In this document: piece by piece, positions 23,509 to 28,421 of the stretch
How positions within the stretch are numbered: the stretch's first letter is position 1
How the letters are laid out: the number at the start of each line of letters is the position of its first letter
Assembly (NCBI GenBank): GCA_902615625.1
Contig: CACMPM010000005.1
Span: 1-64,000 of the forward strand
Direction: 5' to 3'
Source of the DNA: an uncultured Alphaproteobacteria bacterium
GTDB taxonomy: Bacteria > Pseudomonadota > Alphaproteobacteria > HIMB59 > GCA-002718135
Length of the DNA stretch: 64,000 nucleotides
Notes under the pieces: generated by a model
What the model was told of the DNA's origin: nothing
What the model saw: only the letters and a program-made list of their open reading frames with translations
Database searches by the model: none
Made by a program: the position numbers and the translations under genes

Positions 23509-24036
23509 ATGCCAATTGATACTTCTCTAGATTTTGTGCCTATAAATATTGCTGTAATTACAATTTCAGATTCAAGAACTAAAGAGAATGATACATCTGG
23601 AGATACATTAGAAAAGCGCATTACTGATGCTGGTCATAATATGATTAAAAGAATAATTATACCAGATGATGTTTCTCAAATAAAAGATACTTTAGATACA
23701 ATGTCAAAAGAAGAGGAAATTGATTGCATTATTACAACTGGTGGTACTGGTTTAACAGGAAGAGATACAACACCAGAAGCTGTTAATGCTATTGCCAGTA
23801 AACATATTGATGGATTTGGGGAATTATTTCGTCAAGTTAGTTTTGAAAAAATTGGTACATCGGCAATTCAATCACGAGCAGTTGCAGCTTTAATAAATAG
23901 TACCTATGTTTTTTGCTTACCTGGATCAACGGGTGCATGCAAAGACGGCTGGGACGAAATTTTACAATATCAATTAGACATTAGACATAAGCCCTGTAAT
24001 TTTGTTGAAATCATGCCAAGATTAAATGAGAAATAG
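23509..24036 (+). CDS. moaB: Molybdenum cofactor biosynthesis protein B
   Basis: MogA/MoaB-type protein of 175 residues, expected to adenylylate molybdopterin or bind it during cofactor assembly. The family core is intact: VITISDSRTKENDTSGDTL at residues 16-34, IDCIITTGGTGLTGRDTTPE at the pterin-binding loop, and FCLPGSTGACKDGWDEIL near the end. It follows slt by six bases. Its stop TAG overlaps the GTG start of rnhB by one base (TAGTG). Other molybdenum cofactor genes are not in the window. Confidence 0.95.
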   Translation: MPIDTSLDFVPINIAVITISDSRTKENDTSGDTLEKRITDAGHNMIKRIIIPDDVSQIKDTLDTMSKEEEIDCIITTGGTGLTGRDTTPEAVNAIASKHIDGFGELFRQVSFEKIGTSAIQSRAVAALINSTYVFCLPGSTGACKDGWDEILQYQLDIRHKPCNFVEIMPRLNEK

Positions 24037-24650
24037 TGACTGATTTTTCTATAGAGAAATCAATTAATGGACCTGTTATTGGTTTAGATGAAGTTGGCAG
24101 AGGTCCATTAGCAGGTCCGGTAGTCAGTTGTGGATGTTATTTTTCTAATTATGATGATTTAGAATCAGAAATACCCATAACTGATTCAAAAAAACATACG
24201 GCAAAACAGAGAGAAAAATTATTTATATTTTTTAAAAAATTACAAAAAGAAAGAAAACTTCAATATTATTTAGGCTATGCGAGTGTAGAAGAAATAGATA
24301 CAATTAATATTTTGGAAGCAACAAAACTATCGATGAAAAGAGTAATAAATAAATTTAATTTTGAAAATCCACATATTATTATTGATGGAAATTTTTCATT
24401 AAATTATCAAAATGAAAAATCTATTATAAGTGGTGATAAAAAATCTTTATCCATTGCAAGTGCATCTATCATAGCAAAAATTCACCGTGATCGATTGATG
24501 AGTATACTTGATGCTAAATTTAAAGTTTATGATTGGAAAAAAAATGTGGGATACGGAACTAAAAAACATATTGATGCAATACATAAACATGGAATAACTA
24601 ATTTTCATCGAAAATCTTTTGAACCAATTAAATCTCTTTTAAAAAAATAA
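24036..24650 (+). CDS. rnhB: Ribonuclease HII
   Basis: Removes ribonucleotides and RNA primers from DNA-RNA hybrids. Catalytic acidic residues are in GLDEVGRGPLAGPVVSCG (residues 16-33), HIIIDGN, and the conserved ASIIAKIHRDRLM block; the terminal GYGTKKHIDAIHKHG motif is also present. The product is 204 residues. It begins with GTG, one base into the moaB stop, an arrangement that implies translational coupling. It is the last gene of the UDG-slt-moaB-rnhB run; the next feature is a candidate small RNA and its terminator. Confidence 0.95.
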   Translation: MTDFSIEKSINGPVIGLDEVGRGPLAGPVVSCGCYFSNYDDLESEIPITDSKKHTAKQREKLFIFFKKLQKERKLQYYLGYASVEEIDTINILEATKLSMKRVINKFNFENPHIIIDGNFSLNYQNEKSIISGDKKSLSIASASIIAKIHRDRLMSILDAKFKVYDWKKNVGYGTKKHIDAIHKHGITNFHRKSFEPIKSLLKK

Positions 24651-24739
24651 ATTACTGAAATTTATCCATGCAAATACTGCATAACAAATATTATTTTATT
24701 ATGCTTCAAAAAGATGCGACAAATATTAAATATATATTA

Positions 24740-24800
24740 GTTTTCATCATTCCTCCCATTTGATGAACTATTTTAAGGGGTCTACGGACCCCTTTTTTTA
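24740..24800 (+). ncRNA. Candidate small RNA with CUCCC-loop hairpin
   Basis: Two hairpins in a row lie in the rnhB-ccrM gap. The first is TTCATCA - TTCCTCCCATT - TGATGAA (24743-24767), a perfect 7-bp stem presenting an anti-Shine-Dalgarno-like UUCCUCCC loop. Seven bases later comes a strong Rho-independent terminator. The layout, about 60 nt with an exposed CCUCCC followed by a terminator, resembles alphaproteobacterial trans-acting sRNAs such as the suhB/MmgR type. No clear promoter was fixed; the upstream 24651-24740 stretch is AT-rich and otherwise empty. Confidence 0.45.
24775..24800 (+). terminator. Rho-independent terminator before ccrM
   Basis: AAGGGGTC-TACG-GACCCCTT perfect 8-bp stem with a tetraloop, running into a T7 tract. 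It ends either the rnhB transcript or the candidate small RNA. Confidence 0.92.
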
Positions 24801-24833: not shown

Positions 24834-24892
24834 TAAAGATTCTCCCTGTTGATAACTCAATTGACCTGATTTCATATCTGATTAAAGATTCT
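24834..24892 (+). promoter_or_regulatory. Two GANTC sites in repeated TAAAGATTCT context upstream of ccrM
   Basis: TAAAGATTCT occurs at 24834-24843 and again at 24883-24892. Each contains GATTC, the expected CcrM target (GANTC). The second lies 12 bases before the ccrM start. In Caulobacter, methylation of GANTC sites in the ccrM leader switches the promoter off, so these are good candidates for autoregulation. Confidence 0.6.
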
Positions 24893-24903
24893 TTTTATCA
24901 ATT

Positions 24904-25974
24904 ATGAAGAAAAATCAGATCATTTTAGGCGATTCAATTAAGGAAATGAAAAAAATAAAAGATCATTCAGTCGATCTTATTTTTGCTGATCCGCCATACA
25001 ATCTTCAACTAAAAGATACATTATACAGACCAGATCAAACAACTGTCGAAGCGGTTACACAAGATTGGGATAAGTTTAATACATATAAAGAATATGATCA
25101 ATTTACCAACGCGTGGCTCAGTGAATGTAAAAGAATTTTAAAAAAAGGTGGTGCTCTTTGGGTTATAGGTAGTTATCATAATATTTTACGTGTAGGTTCA
25201 ACAATCCAAGATGAAGGATTATGGATTTTAAATGATATTATTTGGCATAAAACAAATCCCATGCCAAACTTTCGTGGCACACGTTTCACAAATGCCCATG
25301 AAACACTTTTATGGTGCACAACATCAAGAGAAGCAAAGTACACATTCAACTATCAAAATCTGAAAGAACTGAATGAAGGAAAACAAATGCGAAGTGACTG
25401 GTATATTCCTATTTGTTCAGGAAAAGAAAGATTACGTAAAGATAACAATCAACGATCACACCCAACACAAAAACCAGAAGCTCTACTCTACCGAATTTTA
25501 TTAGCATCAACAAACAAAGGTGACCTTGTTTTTGATCCCTTTTCCGGAAGTGGAACAACTGCGGTTGTTGCAAAAAAATTACAACGTAATTTTATTGGTA
25601 TTGAAAAAGATAAAGATTACGTCAAACTTTCAAAAGAACGATTAAAGAAAACCAAAGTATTGAAAGAAGATATTGTCACTATTGCAAAAAGTAGAAAAGA
25701 ATTACCAAAAGTTCCTTTTGGTGAATTAGTCGAGCAAGGAATTATTCCACCTGGTGCTGTATTAACTGATAAAAAAGAACGTTTTAAAGCAACGGTTAGT
25801 ATTGATGGAACACTTAAAATAAAAGATTTAACAGGTTCTATTCATCAAATGGGAGCAAAGATACAAGGACTCCCAAGTTGTAATGGCTGGGATTTTTGGC
25901 ATGTAAAAGATAAGTCTAAATCAATCCTACTAGATGAAATACGATCTAATTACCGTAAAGATAAACTGAATTAG
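24904..25974 (+). CDS. ccrM: Cell-cycle DNA adenine methyltransferase CcrM
   Basis: Solitary beta-class N6-adenine methyltransferase that methylates GANTC, important for cell-cycle gene control in alphaproteobacteria. The catalytic DPPY motif is at residues 29-32 (FADPPYNLQL) and precedes the SAM-binding FDPFSGSGTTAVVAKKL, the order expected for the class. The C-terminal ~85 residues form the CcrM-specific DNA-recognition domain with GSIHQMGAKIQGLPSCNGW. The length of 356 residues matches Caulobacter CcrM. No restriction endonuclease is adjacent. Its leader contains two GANTC sites. It is convergent with the autotransporter gene, five bases apart. Confidence 0.97.
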   Translation: MKKNQIILGDSIKEMKKIKDHSVDLIFADPPYNLQLKDTLYRPDQTTVEAVTQDWDKFNTYKEYDQFTNAWLSECKRILKKGGALWVIGSYHNILRVGSTIQDEGLWILNDIIWHKTNPMPNFRGTRFTNAHETLLWCTTSREAKYTFNYQNLKELNEGKQMRSDWYIPICSGKERLRKDNNQRSHPTQKPEALLYRILLASTNKGDLVFDPFSGSGTTAVVAKKLQRNFIGIEKDKDYVKLSKERLKKTKVLKEDIVTIAKSRKELPKVPFGELVEQGIIPPGAVLTDKKERFKATVSIDGTLKIKDLTGSIHQMGAKIQGLPSCNGWDFWHVKDKSKSILLDEIRSNYRKDKLN

Positions 25975-25979
25975 TATTC

Positions 25980-28421
25980 TTAAAAGTTATACGTCAGTAT
26001 TAATTCTGCTTCTTGATTTGGATTGGCACTAAAAGAGTCACTAGCACTAAATCCTAAATCAAGACCATATATATTTTTTGATATACCAAGTTTAGCCTCT
26101 GTATTTTCATCACCAACTAATGACATGCTGTATTGTGTTTCACGATTTGATGTAAAATTAATACTCAAATCTATAGTATCTCTACGTTCACTCGTGTTAC
26201 CTTGAGCCCTACTATAACTGGAGTTAATATTTAAATAATCTCCAGCAATAAATGTTAATCCAATCATAGAGCTGATTAAATGATCTGAATTAGTTTCTTG
26301 CGTATAGGTATAAATTGTTGAAGTATCTGTTACATAATTGATCTTGGCATCAGATTTGTTACTAAAATCAGTAATAAATTTAAGTGATCCAAATGGTTGT
26401 AATTTTTTTTCATTAAGTTGAATATTATCACTAAATTCAAAACCAAATGAAGCTAATCCACTTTTAATTCTCTGACTTGCATAATATAGAGCATTTATTC
26501 CACTCTCTTTGTAGTCATCAAGTTTAGTATAACCTAAATCAAGACGTCCAATTGGTGTTATATTAAAATCACCTCGGTCAATTTTTTTACCATAATTGAT
26601 GGAGCTAAATATTTGTGTTCCATCCCGCGTGCCTGTTAATACATTCGTAGAATTAATGAATCTTTTTAAATCACTTTCTATTAACCCAACACCTAACAAT
26701 GTTTCGATAAAATTATTATTATCAAGTGGCCTTGTTCGGTAAATAGAGAAATTCATATTTTCACTATCAACACTTGTTCCATTTGTTCCAATATCCGTAT
26801 CGCTTTGACCATATTGAATAGCAAAACCAAGAAAATCACTATCACTTAATTTTTTATCAAATCCTAATGCTACTGCTTGACCTTCAGTTTCTTGTGAAGA
26901 TGAATTTATACTATCACCAATTTTTGATGCATAAGTTGATCCAGATGTCCACGCAGACCAATTATCTGGCATGATGGAATTGGTATTTTTTTCTATATTA
27001 TCATTTACTAATGAGGCAAGAATTGTATTACCAAGATCTATTTGTAATCCTTGGCTCGATAAAGTATCACTCAATCTATTTTGTCTTAAAAATCGTAAAC
27101 GCTTTGAAACAGTATCAATAGACTGGCTAATATAGTTTTTTGCTAATTCACTTTGTGCATCTATTGAACCTATAACGTCCTTGTTTGTTGTTGGATCCAA
27201 TTTATCATCATTAACAGTAAAACTTAGAGCCGTTGTTAAGGATATACCTGCATAGTATCCACTTGTATTATCAACAAATGCTGTAGCAGGAATTAAAACA
27301 TAATATTCAATACCATATTCTAAATCATCAGTTGGATTAATAGTTATTTGAGAAGTTCCAGTTCCCGTAACATTACTACTTGTTACATTTATTGTTGCAA
27401 CTGTAGAGTCATCAGAAGTTTTATGAATGGTAATATTACCACTATCAACATTAACTTTTTCACTAAAGTTTAAAACTATATTAGCATCTACTGAAACACC
27501 TACAGCATTATCTGCTGGTGATGAAGAACTCAACGTTGGTAATTTTAAATTATAGTTTGATACTAGAGTATATTCATACACTGAATCATTTTCGTTTCCC
27601 AAAAAAAACATTTTGGAACCATCGTCATTAAATCCTATACCTTTAGGATGAACATCTTTATCGTTAATTGAAAAACTGCTAACGTGTGAGGCAGTTGTTA
27701 TATCAAAGCCAGTAGAAAGGTAAAACTCATTAACTGCTTTATCTTTTCTACCCAAAGTAAACATTACCGTACCATCGTCACTAAATGCAAATCCTGTTGC
27801 TTCATCTTCAAAGTCAGATACACTGACAGTGTCATCATGAGATGCTGTTGATATGTCAAAGGCAGTAGATAAAGTATAAACATAGATATTTGATGTATCA
27901 AAAATAAACATTTTGGTACCATCAGAATTAAATTCTAGATCCTTAGGTTTGAGATTTGTTATCTCTGTTAATGTTTTACTTTGTTCAAATGATGCCTCTG
28001 AGACATCAAAAGCAGGTAGAGAATACTCATGGATGTCTTGAGAAAATCCTAACATATACATTTTAGTTCCATCATTATTAAATTTAACACTTGTTGGCGC
28101 CCCCTCTTTGTCGTCCAAATCATAAGAATCACCTCTATCATAAGTTCTTGTTGATATATCGAAAGCAGTAGCAAGATTGAACTCATGGACATCATCGGAT
28201 TCGCTTCCTACAATATACATTTTGGTACCATCATTATTAAATGTTAAACCAGTAGGAAATTTTTCTGGAGCAGTATTAGCAACACCACCTTGATCATCAA
28301 TGACTGTGCCATCGACAAAAGCTGGTTCGGCTTTTAAAGAAGTAACTAAAAGACAATAAAAAAATAAAAATAAAAAAAGGTAAATTAAATTGTTTTTTAT
28401 TTTGACCAAACTTACAAACAT
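25980..28421 (-). CDS. Autotransporter-type surface protein with propeller repeats and Ig-like domain
   Basis: Large outer-membrane protein of 813 residues. A hydrophobic leader (residues ~10-31) is followed by five ~50-residue repeats built on FNNDGTKMYIVG...VHEFNLATAFDIST, a likely beta-propeller. Residues ~296-400 form an SbsA-type Ig-like domain (ADNAVGVSVDANIVLNFSE). The rest, from about 480, reads like an autotransporter beta-barrel (NWSAWTSGSTYASKIGD) and ends with the outer-membrane signature LILTYNF. The repeats probably face the outside. Ligand and function are unknown; adhesion or particle binding is a guess. It is a single gene downstream of the MATE gene on the same strand. Confidence 0.8.
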   Translation of the reverse strand: MFVSLVKIKNNLIYLFLFLFFYCLLVTSLKAEPAFVDGTVIDDQGGVANTAPEKFPTGLTFNNDGTKMYIVGSESDDVHEFNLATAFDISTRTYDRGDSYDLDDKEGAPTSVKFNNDGTKMYMLGFSQDIHEYSLPAFDVSEASFEQSKTLTEITNLKPKDLEFNSDGTKMFIFDTSNIYVYTLSTAFDISTASHDDTVSVSDFEDEATGFAFSDDGTVMFTLGRKDKAVNEFYLSTGFDITTASHVSSFSINDKDVHPKGIGFNDDGSKMFFLGNENDSVYEYTLVSNYNLKLPTLSSSSPADNAVGVSVDANIVLNFSEKVNVDSGNITIHKTSDDSTVATINVTSSNVTGTGTSQITINPTDDLEYGIEYYVLIPATAFVDNTSGYYAGISLTTALSFTVNDDKLDPTTNKDVIGSIDAQSELAKNYISQSIDTVSKRLRFLRQNRLSDTLSSQGLQIDLGNTILASLVNDNIEKNTNSIMPDNWSAWTSGSTYASKIGDSINSSSQETEGQAVALGFDKKLSDSDFLGFAIQYGQSDTDIGTNGTSVDSENMNFSIYRTRPLDNNNFIETLLGVGLIESDLKRFINSTNVLTGTRDGTQIFSSINYGKKIDRGDFNITPIGRLDLGYTKLDDYKESGINALYYASQRIKSGLASFGFEFSDNIQLNEKKLQPFGSLKFITDFSNKSDAKINYVTDTSTIYTYTQETNSDHLISSMIGLTFIAGDYLNINSSYSRAQGNTSERRDTIDLSINFTSNRETQYSMSLVGDENTEAKLGISKNIYGLDLGFSASDSFSANPNQEAELILTYNF

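Follow-up and report, generated by a model that had tools for sequence, protein, structure and literature searches.

A predicted small RNA (sRNA) gene of about 60 nt lies between rnhB and a ccrM-like gene in the genome of an uncultured Alphaproteobacteria bacterium. The window analysed here comprises 64,000 nucleotides (positions 1 to 64,000 of CACMPM010000005.1, contig C5 of a 1.31-Mb assembly of 32 contigs). Comparisons with related genomes indicate that the element is very probably an independent, conserved RNA gene; it is found at two unrelated chromosomal locations, its stem is replaced around a loop that does not change, and copies of its hairpin are present in phage contigs. The loop is complementary to strong Shine-Dalgarno (SD) sequences, and the reading that we favor, at a probability of about 60%, is that the RNA represses transporter mRNAs by an anti-SD mechanism.

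Structure and conservation of the RNA

The original prediction described a perfect 7-bp stem and loop located 7 nt before a strong terminator, and the sequence, the predicted fold and a terminator scan all agree with it (Table 1). The stem is formed by pairing of TTCATCA (24743-24749) with TGATGAA (24761-24767), leaving an unpaired loop of 11 nt (UUCCUCCCAUU; letters TTCCTCCCATT at 24750-24760), and a 7 nt spacer leads to the terminator. The terminator arms, AAGGGGTC-TACG-GACCCCTT, occupy 24775-24794 and the T-run reaches 24799; for comparison, a shuffled 1-kb region averages 0.2 terminator-like sites. The segment 24735-24800 folds at -21.5 kcal/mol (z = -5.0) and no shuffled sequence folds equally well. 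The hairpin occurs once in the window, even when three mismatches are allowed. Its loop is the complement of (U)GGGAGGAA, and the complementarity to SD sequences that was originally proposed is supported.

Table 1. Coordinates of the RNA, its upstream region and the flanking genes in the window.
Feature	Position	Strand	Basis or remark
Predicted sRNA, about 60 nt	24738..24799	+	5' end inferred from promoter spacing
Hairpin 1, stem TTCATCA/TGATGAA, loop TTCCTCCCATT	24743..24767	+	Sequence, fold, alignment, covariation between clades
Loop core UUCCUCCCA, conserved, with complement UGGGAGGAA; putative anti-SD seed	24750..24758	+	Contains CUCCCA, the AbcR motif M1 (PMC5461406)
Intrinsic terminator	24775..24799	+	Terminator scan; compensatory changes among relatives
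Palindrome ATGCA-N5-TGCAT, candidate operator/activator site of the RNA's promoter	24668..24682	+	Conserved upstream of the hairpin
Promoter block, near-invariant TTTATTATGCTTCAAAAAGATGCGACAAA	24695..24732	+	Column conservation
Candidate -10 TAAATA	24727-24732	+	Hexamer read by eye
Weak candidate -35 TTCAAA	24705-24710	+	Hexamer read by eye
rnhB (ribonuclease HII), upstream neighbour	24036..24650	+	Pfam RNase_HII
CcrM-like DNA methyltransferase with RAMA domain, downstream neighbour	24904..25974	+	Pfam N6_N4_Mtase, RAMA

The relatives available for comparison are single-cell marine genomes labelled as uncultured Alphaproteobacteria, Pelagibacteraceae bacterium AG-337-I02 and MarineAlpha5 bins. 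Stem and loop are conserved in more than 60 public loci within the rnhB-ccrM gap, with a near-invariant TCATCA/UUCCUCCCA, and the stem, loop, terminator and promoter/operator block are kept in about 80 genomes overall, far beyond what chance would give. When 21 distinct sequences are aligned, the core TCATCA-(U)UCCUCCCA-UGAUG is scarcely variable, and the terminator stem contains compensatory changes. A search pattern fixed to TGATGA was too narrow, matching just three genomes. The covariance model R1 also matched, less strongly, genomes of a sister clade and of genus g5, and model R2 was built from both host forms together with that of g5. R2 has one strong match per genome in about 80 genomes of genus g1 and in G108 of genus g5, scoring 57-82 bits in nearly every genome that carries the RNA, with one weaker case at 39 bits (G055). 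No strong match to R2 was found in the other family of the order (f2), and the weak matches inspected there and in g4 are terminators without the loop. Similarly, a covariance search of 385 genomes of the class gave nothing strong outside the family, the inspected weak matches again being terminators that lack the loop.

A second chromosomal location

In the sister clade and in g5 the RNA adjoins an acyltransferase gene, at a chromosomal site unlike the rnhB-ccrM gap. The gene on the far side resembles that for electron transfer flavoprotein-ubiquinone oxidoreductase (ETF-QO) in the sister-clade loci that were read, and is another gene in g5; at the relocated loci examined, the RNA is flanked by a divergent gene upstream and a convergent one downstream. 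The acyltransferase/ETF-QO gap of the window's genome measures about 29 bp and does not contain the RNA, and most rnhB-ccrM gaps of the sister type are 62-65 bp. These short empty gaps at the alternative site indicate that the RNA gene sits at one locus or the other.

The stem in the sister clade is GAUUUAAUAUU/AAUAUUUAAAUC as compared with UUCAUCA/UGAUGAA in the window's clade, but the loop core UUCCUCCCA is unchanged. Covariation of the stem, to which the original prediction had looked for support, is nearly silent within the window's clade and is uninformative there because the stem hardly varies, but it is apparent between clades, where two pairs change from C-G to U-A and the whole stem is replaced. 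The inner core UCCUCCCA is invariant in the two host clades and g5 and is found in the phage forms too, with the fuller core UUCCUCCCA kept in almost all copies, so that a conserved loop is carried on stems of variable sequence in the host clades, in g5 and in the phage forms.

The position of the RNA is also independent of its neighbours at the rnhB-ccrM locus. In L077 an insertion of about 0.7 kb sets rnhB apart from the RNA, and in L342 an insertion separates the RNA from ccrM, yet the RNA is intact in both. In G055 a different gene, on the opposite strand, lies 3' of the RNA. The relocation and the insertions on either side argue that the RNA is its own unit, as opposed to an untranslated region (UTR) of rnhB or a ccrM leader.

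The upstream region is conserved as well. The palindrome ATGCA-N5-TGCAT is present in 71 of 75 loci, 58-68 nt 5' of the hairpin core, in both host clades and at two unrelated chromosomal positions, and both it and the promoter-like block recur at the sister-clade locus. Column conservation among 50 sequences is about 2 bits from approximately -48 to -22 relative to the hairpin, dips just 5' of the hairpin and is near maximal again within it, a pattern that would be expected if a promoter is followed by a free start region and then by a functional RNA. A sigma-70 scan at the locus did not call the candidate -35 and -10 hexamers. As judged by sequence alone, the RNA has its own promoter, its own terminator and a position that does not depend on its neighbours, and the originally predicted stand-alone RNA of about 60 nt is supported by the promoter block, the terminator, the conservation and the two chromosomal loci.

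We considered the palindrome as a VtlR binding box but rejected it, as the published box (GCAT-N3-TG-N3-T) has other spacing; a search with an OxyR query found no LysR-type proteins in 1.2 Mb of the window's genome. The sequence ATGCA-N5-TGCATA is also located 5' of a circularly permuted ATP-grasp gene and 5' of a short open reading frame (ORF) (G000:C2:54177 = L286; G000:C20:8855 = L321). Approximately one ATGCA-N5-TGCAT site is expected by chance per 1.2 Mb, and there may be a small regulon.

Complementarity to translation starts

We examined 1.20 of the 1.31 Mb of the window's genome, in which a simple gene caller identified 1189 ORFs. A GGAGG sequence is present 20-4 nt 5' of the chosen start in 29 of these, including 13 that encode solute-binding proteins (SBPs; by Pfam or close similarity) and one further protein with a twin-arginine translocation (Tat) signal and no Pfam match that was counted as SBP-like. 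The site is thus found in 14 of about 24 SBPs and in 15 of about 1165 other genes (Fisher p ~1e-18, an approximate value). Among the best pairings are the SBPs at C6-20636 and C9+26727 (UGGGAGGAU) and a tripartite ATP-independent periplasmic (TRAP) transporter SBP at C1-77842, although some top-ranked pairings involve non-SBP genes, and the GGAGG genes include ilvC, a bactofilin and others. In other genomes, a perfect 8-mer 5' of start codons mostly marks SBPs, plus a PhyH gene.

The ribosome-binding site TTTTGGGAGGA of this PhyH-family dioxygenase gene (L351-L353, L214) recurs in many genomes of the genus and is altered in the window's genome. A second conserved match, TTTGAAGGACAAAATAGCG..., was set aside, there being no long ORF at the start tested. 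A search for Hfq (PF17209) in 162 genomes of the order found none, with positive controls matched in five of 14 named genomes, Caulobacter included; if the RNA does pair with mRNAs, it therefore probably does so free of Hfq.

Phage copies of the hairpin

Scanning viral contigs for exact copies of the sister-clade hairpin identified five contigs, and L361 and the variant in L439 and L440 came from additional scans and a search for terminases. This form (form i; L354-L358, L361, L439, L440) is represented by at least eight phage contigs, with either the hairpin of the sister clade or a close variant of it, that encode terminase, portal, endolysin and head genes. A second form (form ii), UCAUAAUUCCUCCCAAAUUAUGA, occupies the same position in six contigs (L365-L368, L471, L485). 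Both forms are directly 5' of the terminase large-subunit gene, terL; the hairpin of L356 has the terS-like gene on its other side. The L356 copy and the host locus L181 have 46 identical nt. Upstream of the phage copy is TTGACA, with TATAAA 17-18 nt further on, and downstream is a different second hairpin that ends just 5' of the terL start; the T-run is weak in several contigs and termination there is thus uncertain.

Form ii has the loop and part of the 5' arm in common with the window's form. It scores 36-40 bits with R2 in three contigs and about 23 bits in the other three, close to the level of unrelated terminators, and is likely, though less firmly so, to be homologous to the host RNA. 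The hairpin is absent from more distant terL relatives, no viral contig matched when the window's own stem was used for the scan, and an INPHARED search with the phage hairpin gave only chance-level matches. An unrelated viral contig (L459, 4130-4200) has a 9-bp stem that bears a TTTTCCTCCCA loop, with a terminator-like hairpin after it, and this is possibly another anti-SD RNA.

We infer the direction of transfer and the phage host, the phages most likely infecting this bacterial group. The phage ORFs inspected, a small sample, have SDs of the GGAG type and not GGAGG. A tentative and rather doubtful scenario is that the captured hairpin, expressed from a strong promoter between the terminase genes, would damp the translation of host mRNAs with strong SDs (chiefly those of transporter SBPs) in the course of infection and spare the phage's own GGAG-type mRNAs, a take-over of host translation by means of a host sRNA. 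AgvB, a phage-encoded anti-sRNA that mimics the targets of a host sRNA (PMC12197685), is likewise a phage-borne small RNA that touches the host post-transcriptional network, but the phages described here bear the host sRNA's own hairpin. If the scenario is correct, this would be a rare instance of phage carriage of a host regulatory RNA, rather than of an antagonist of one.

Comparison with known RNA families

No Rfam family matches the window or its relatives at the gathering score. At E-values up to 10, the region 24600-24950 matches neither suhB nor any alphaproteobacterial sRNA family, and the best weak matches are to a fungal snoRNA, MicF and similar chance-level hits. The suhB/MmgR kinship that had been suggested finds no support here, the likeness being the general one of a small alphaproteobacterial RNA. 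There is also no Rfam match to AbcR (alpha-r15), although the presence of an alpha-r15 model in this copy of Rfam is unconfirmed.

The closest working model is an anti-SD sRNA of the AbcR, NfeR1 or Yfr kind. AbcR1 and AbcR2 of the Rhizobiales silence ATP-binding cassette (ABC) transporter mRNAs, including many for SBPs, through CUCCUCCC or CUCCCA in a 5' hairpin loop, and bind Hfq (PMC8844928, PMC5461406). CUCCCA is the AbcR motif M1 in Brucella (PMC5461406), and is contained in the loop of the window's RNA. The latter, however, is about 60 nt long as compared with 114-121 nt for AbcR, lacks the second seed (GUUCCC/UUCCCCUC), the middle hairpin and the three-hairpin layout, its hairpin and terminator being separated by only 7 nt, and it is situated in a different gene neighbourhood in an order where no Hfq was found. 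NfeR1 (alpha-r14) has an ultraconserved CCUCCUCCC anti-SD loop on highly differing stems, SBP mRNAs as validated targets, and does not need Hfq as AbcR does (PMC10746234, PMC8844928). The window's RNA resembles NfeR1/alpha-r14 and the cuckoo RNAs in keeping its loop while its stem changes, but has one anti-SD hairpin rather than three, belongs to another lineage, and has UUCCUCCCA in its loop instead of the CCUCCUCCC motif. Yfr1 and Yfr10 of marine cyanobacteria are short RNAs with a conserved motif containing UCCU, which in Yfr10 forms a loop on a poorly conserved stem (PMC6778093). They too are short RNAs of streamlined marine bacteria, but differ in motif, phylum and targets, and the Yfr1 motif lies between two stem-loops. 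We do not class the RNA as a member of AbcR or NfeR1, because it matches no family model, lacks a second seed and is half the length.

Flanking genes

The conserved region 5' of the ccrM-like gene contains GATTC (GANTC, CcrM-type) at 24838-24842 and 24887-24891, and relatives have a third GATTC where the window has GATTT; the gene may be subject to methylation-based self-regulation. An 813-aa autotransporter with a Big_5 domain is encoded on the minus strand at 25980-28421, convergent to the ccrM-like gene.

Alternative explanations

Several observations weigh against repression of transporter mRNAs. Strong SDs are expected on highly expressed genes, and the complementarity to SBP starts may simply reflect this; any anti-SD loop would match strong SDs. 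The p-value given above overstates its precision, because some entries of the SBP list came from the GGAGG genes themselves before it was extended with phmmer and then by eye, and because the start-codon rule rewards SD-like sequence. About 20 genomes of the genus have no match to the RNA, some perhaps through incompleteness. Among hand-picked genomes from the 162, the pattern TGGGAGGA-N3-8-ATG occurs on average 5.0 times in 34 f1 genomes (controls 0.8; the count includes the RNA's own reverse complement) versus 4.8 times in 25 f2 genomes (controls 1.8), which have no strong match to the RNA, and genome counts of GGGAGGAA relative to reversed-pattern controls reveal no enrichment attributable to the RNA. 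The complementarity is clear, but the f1/f2 comparison does not show selection for targeting. A real conserved sRNA whose loop acts otherwise, as an RNA sponge or target, a protein-binding hairpin, or through mRNA sites other than transporter SDs, with the SBP match being an effect of strong SDs, would account for the failure of SD complementarity to discriminate genomes with and without the RNA, and for the variety of GGAGG genes. We regard this as less likely, given that replacement of the stems has left the loop core invariant, and that the loop is an exact SD complement and equals a proven AbcR seed. We prefer anti-SD repression because this mode of action is proven for AbcR1/2 and NfeR1, which have a nearly identical loop and act on the same class of mRNA.

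The remaining explanations concern the nature of the element itself. The rnhB transcript could end here, in which case the element would be an ordinary terminator accompanied by a hairpin, and possibly a 3'-UTR-derived RNA; rnhB is upstream on the same strand and there is no other obvious terminator before ccrM. This is improbable, as the RNA of the sister clade and g5 lies at a locus without rnhB, L077 has about 0.7 kb between the two, the upstream block with its operator-like palindrome is common to both loci, and an invariant loop upstream is not something that plain terminators retain. Still less probable is that the element is primarily of phage origin, with domesticated chromosomal copies. 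Phage contigs do carry the hairpin between terS and terL and the host copies are at two unrelated loci, but in the hosts the RNA is a single, ordered copy that nearly all members of the genus share and that has its own operator, whereas promoters and second hairpins differ in the phage copies, a better fit to capture of the hairpin by phage. We give least credence to a leader or attenuator of ccrM, which the location of the RNA 5' of that gene on the same strand might suggest. It is already contradicted by the relocation, which places the sister-clade RNA away from ccrM, and by G055, where another gene on the opposite strand follows; moreover, no alternative conserved antiterminator was seen, and a conserved promoter-like region that belongs to ccrM itself follows the terminator.

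Proposed role

In the anti-SD model, an independent, trans-acting sRNA gene would be transcribed from an upstream-regulated promoter to give an RNA of about 60 nt, consisting of the 5' hairpin and the terminator. The hairpin would display UUCCUCCCA and pair without Hfq to strong SDs of the type (U)GGGAGGA or AGGAGGA, preventing the start of translation on a set of mRNAs, most of them for ABC and TRAP transporter SBPs. The two host loci, with their swapped stems and unchanged loop, constitute a clean natural test of the loop as the working part. If the model is correct, the RNA would be a minimal AbcR-like regulator, a single seed hairpin plus a terminator, in a streamlined marine lineage where no Hfq was found, and would reveal post-transcriptional control of the uptake systems that decide what these bacteria can eat.
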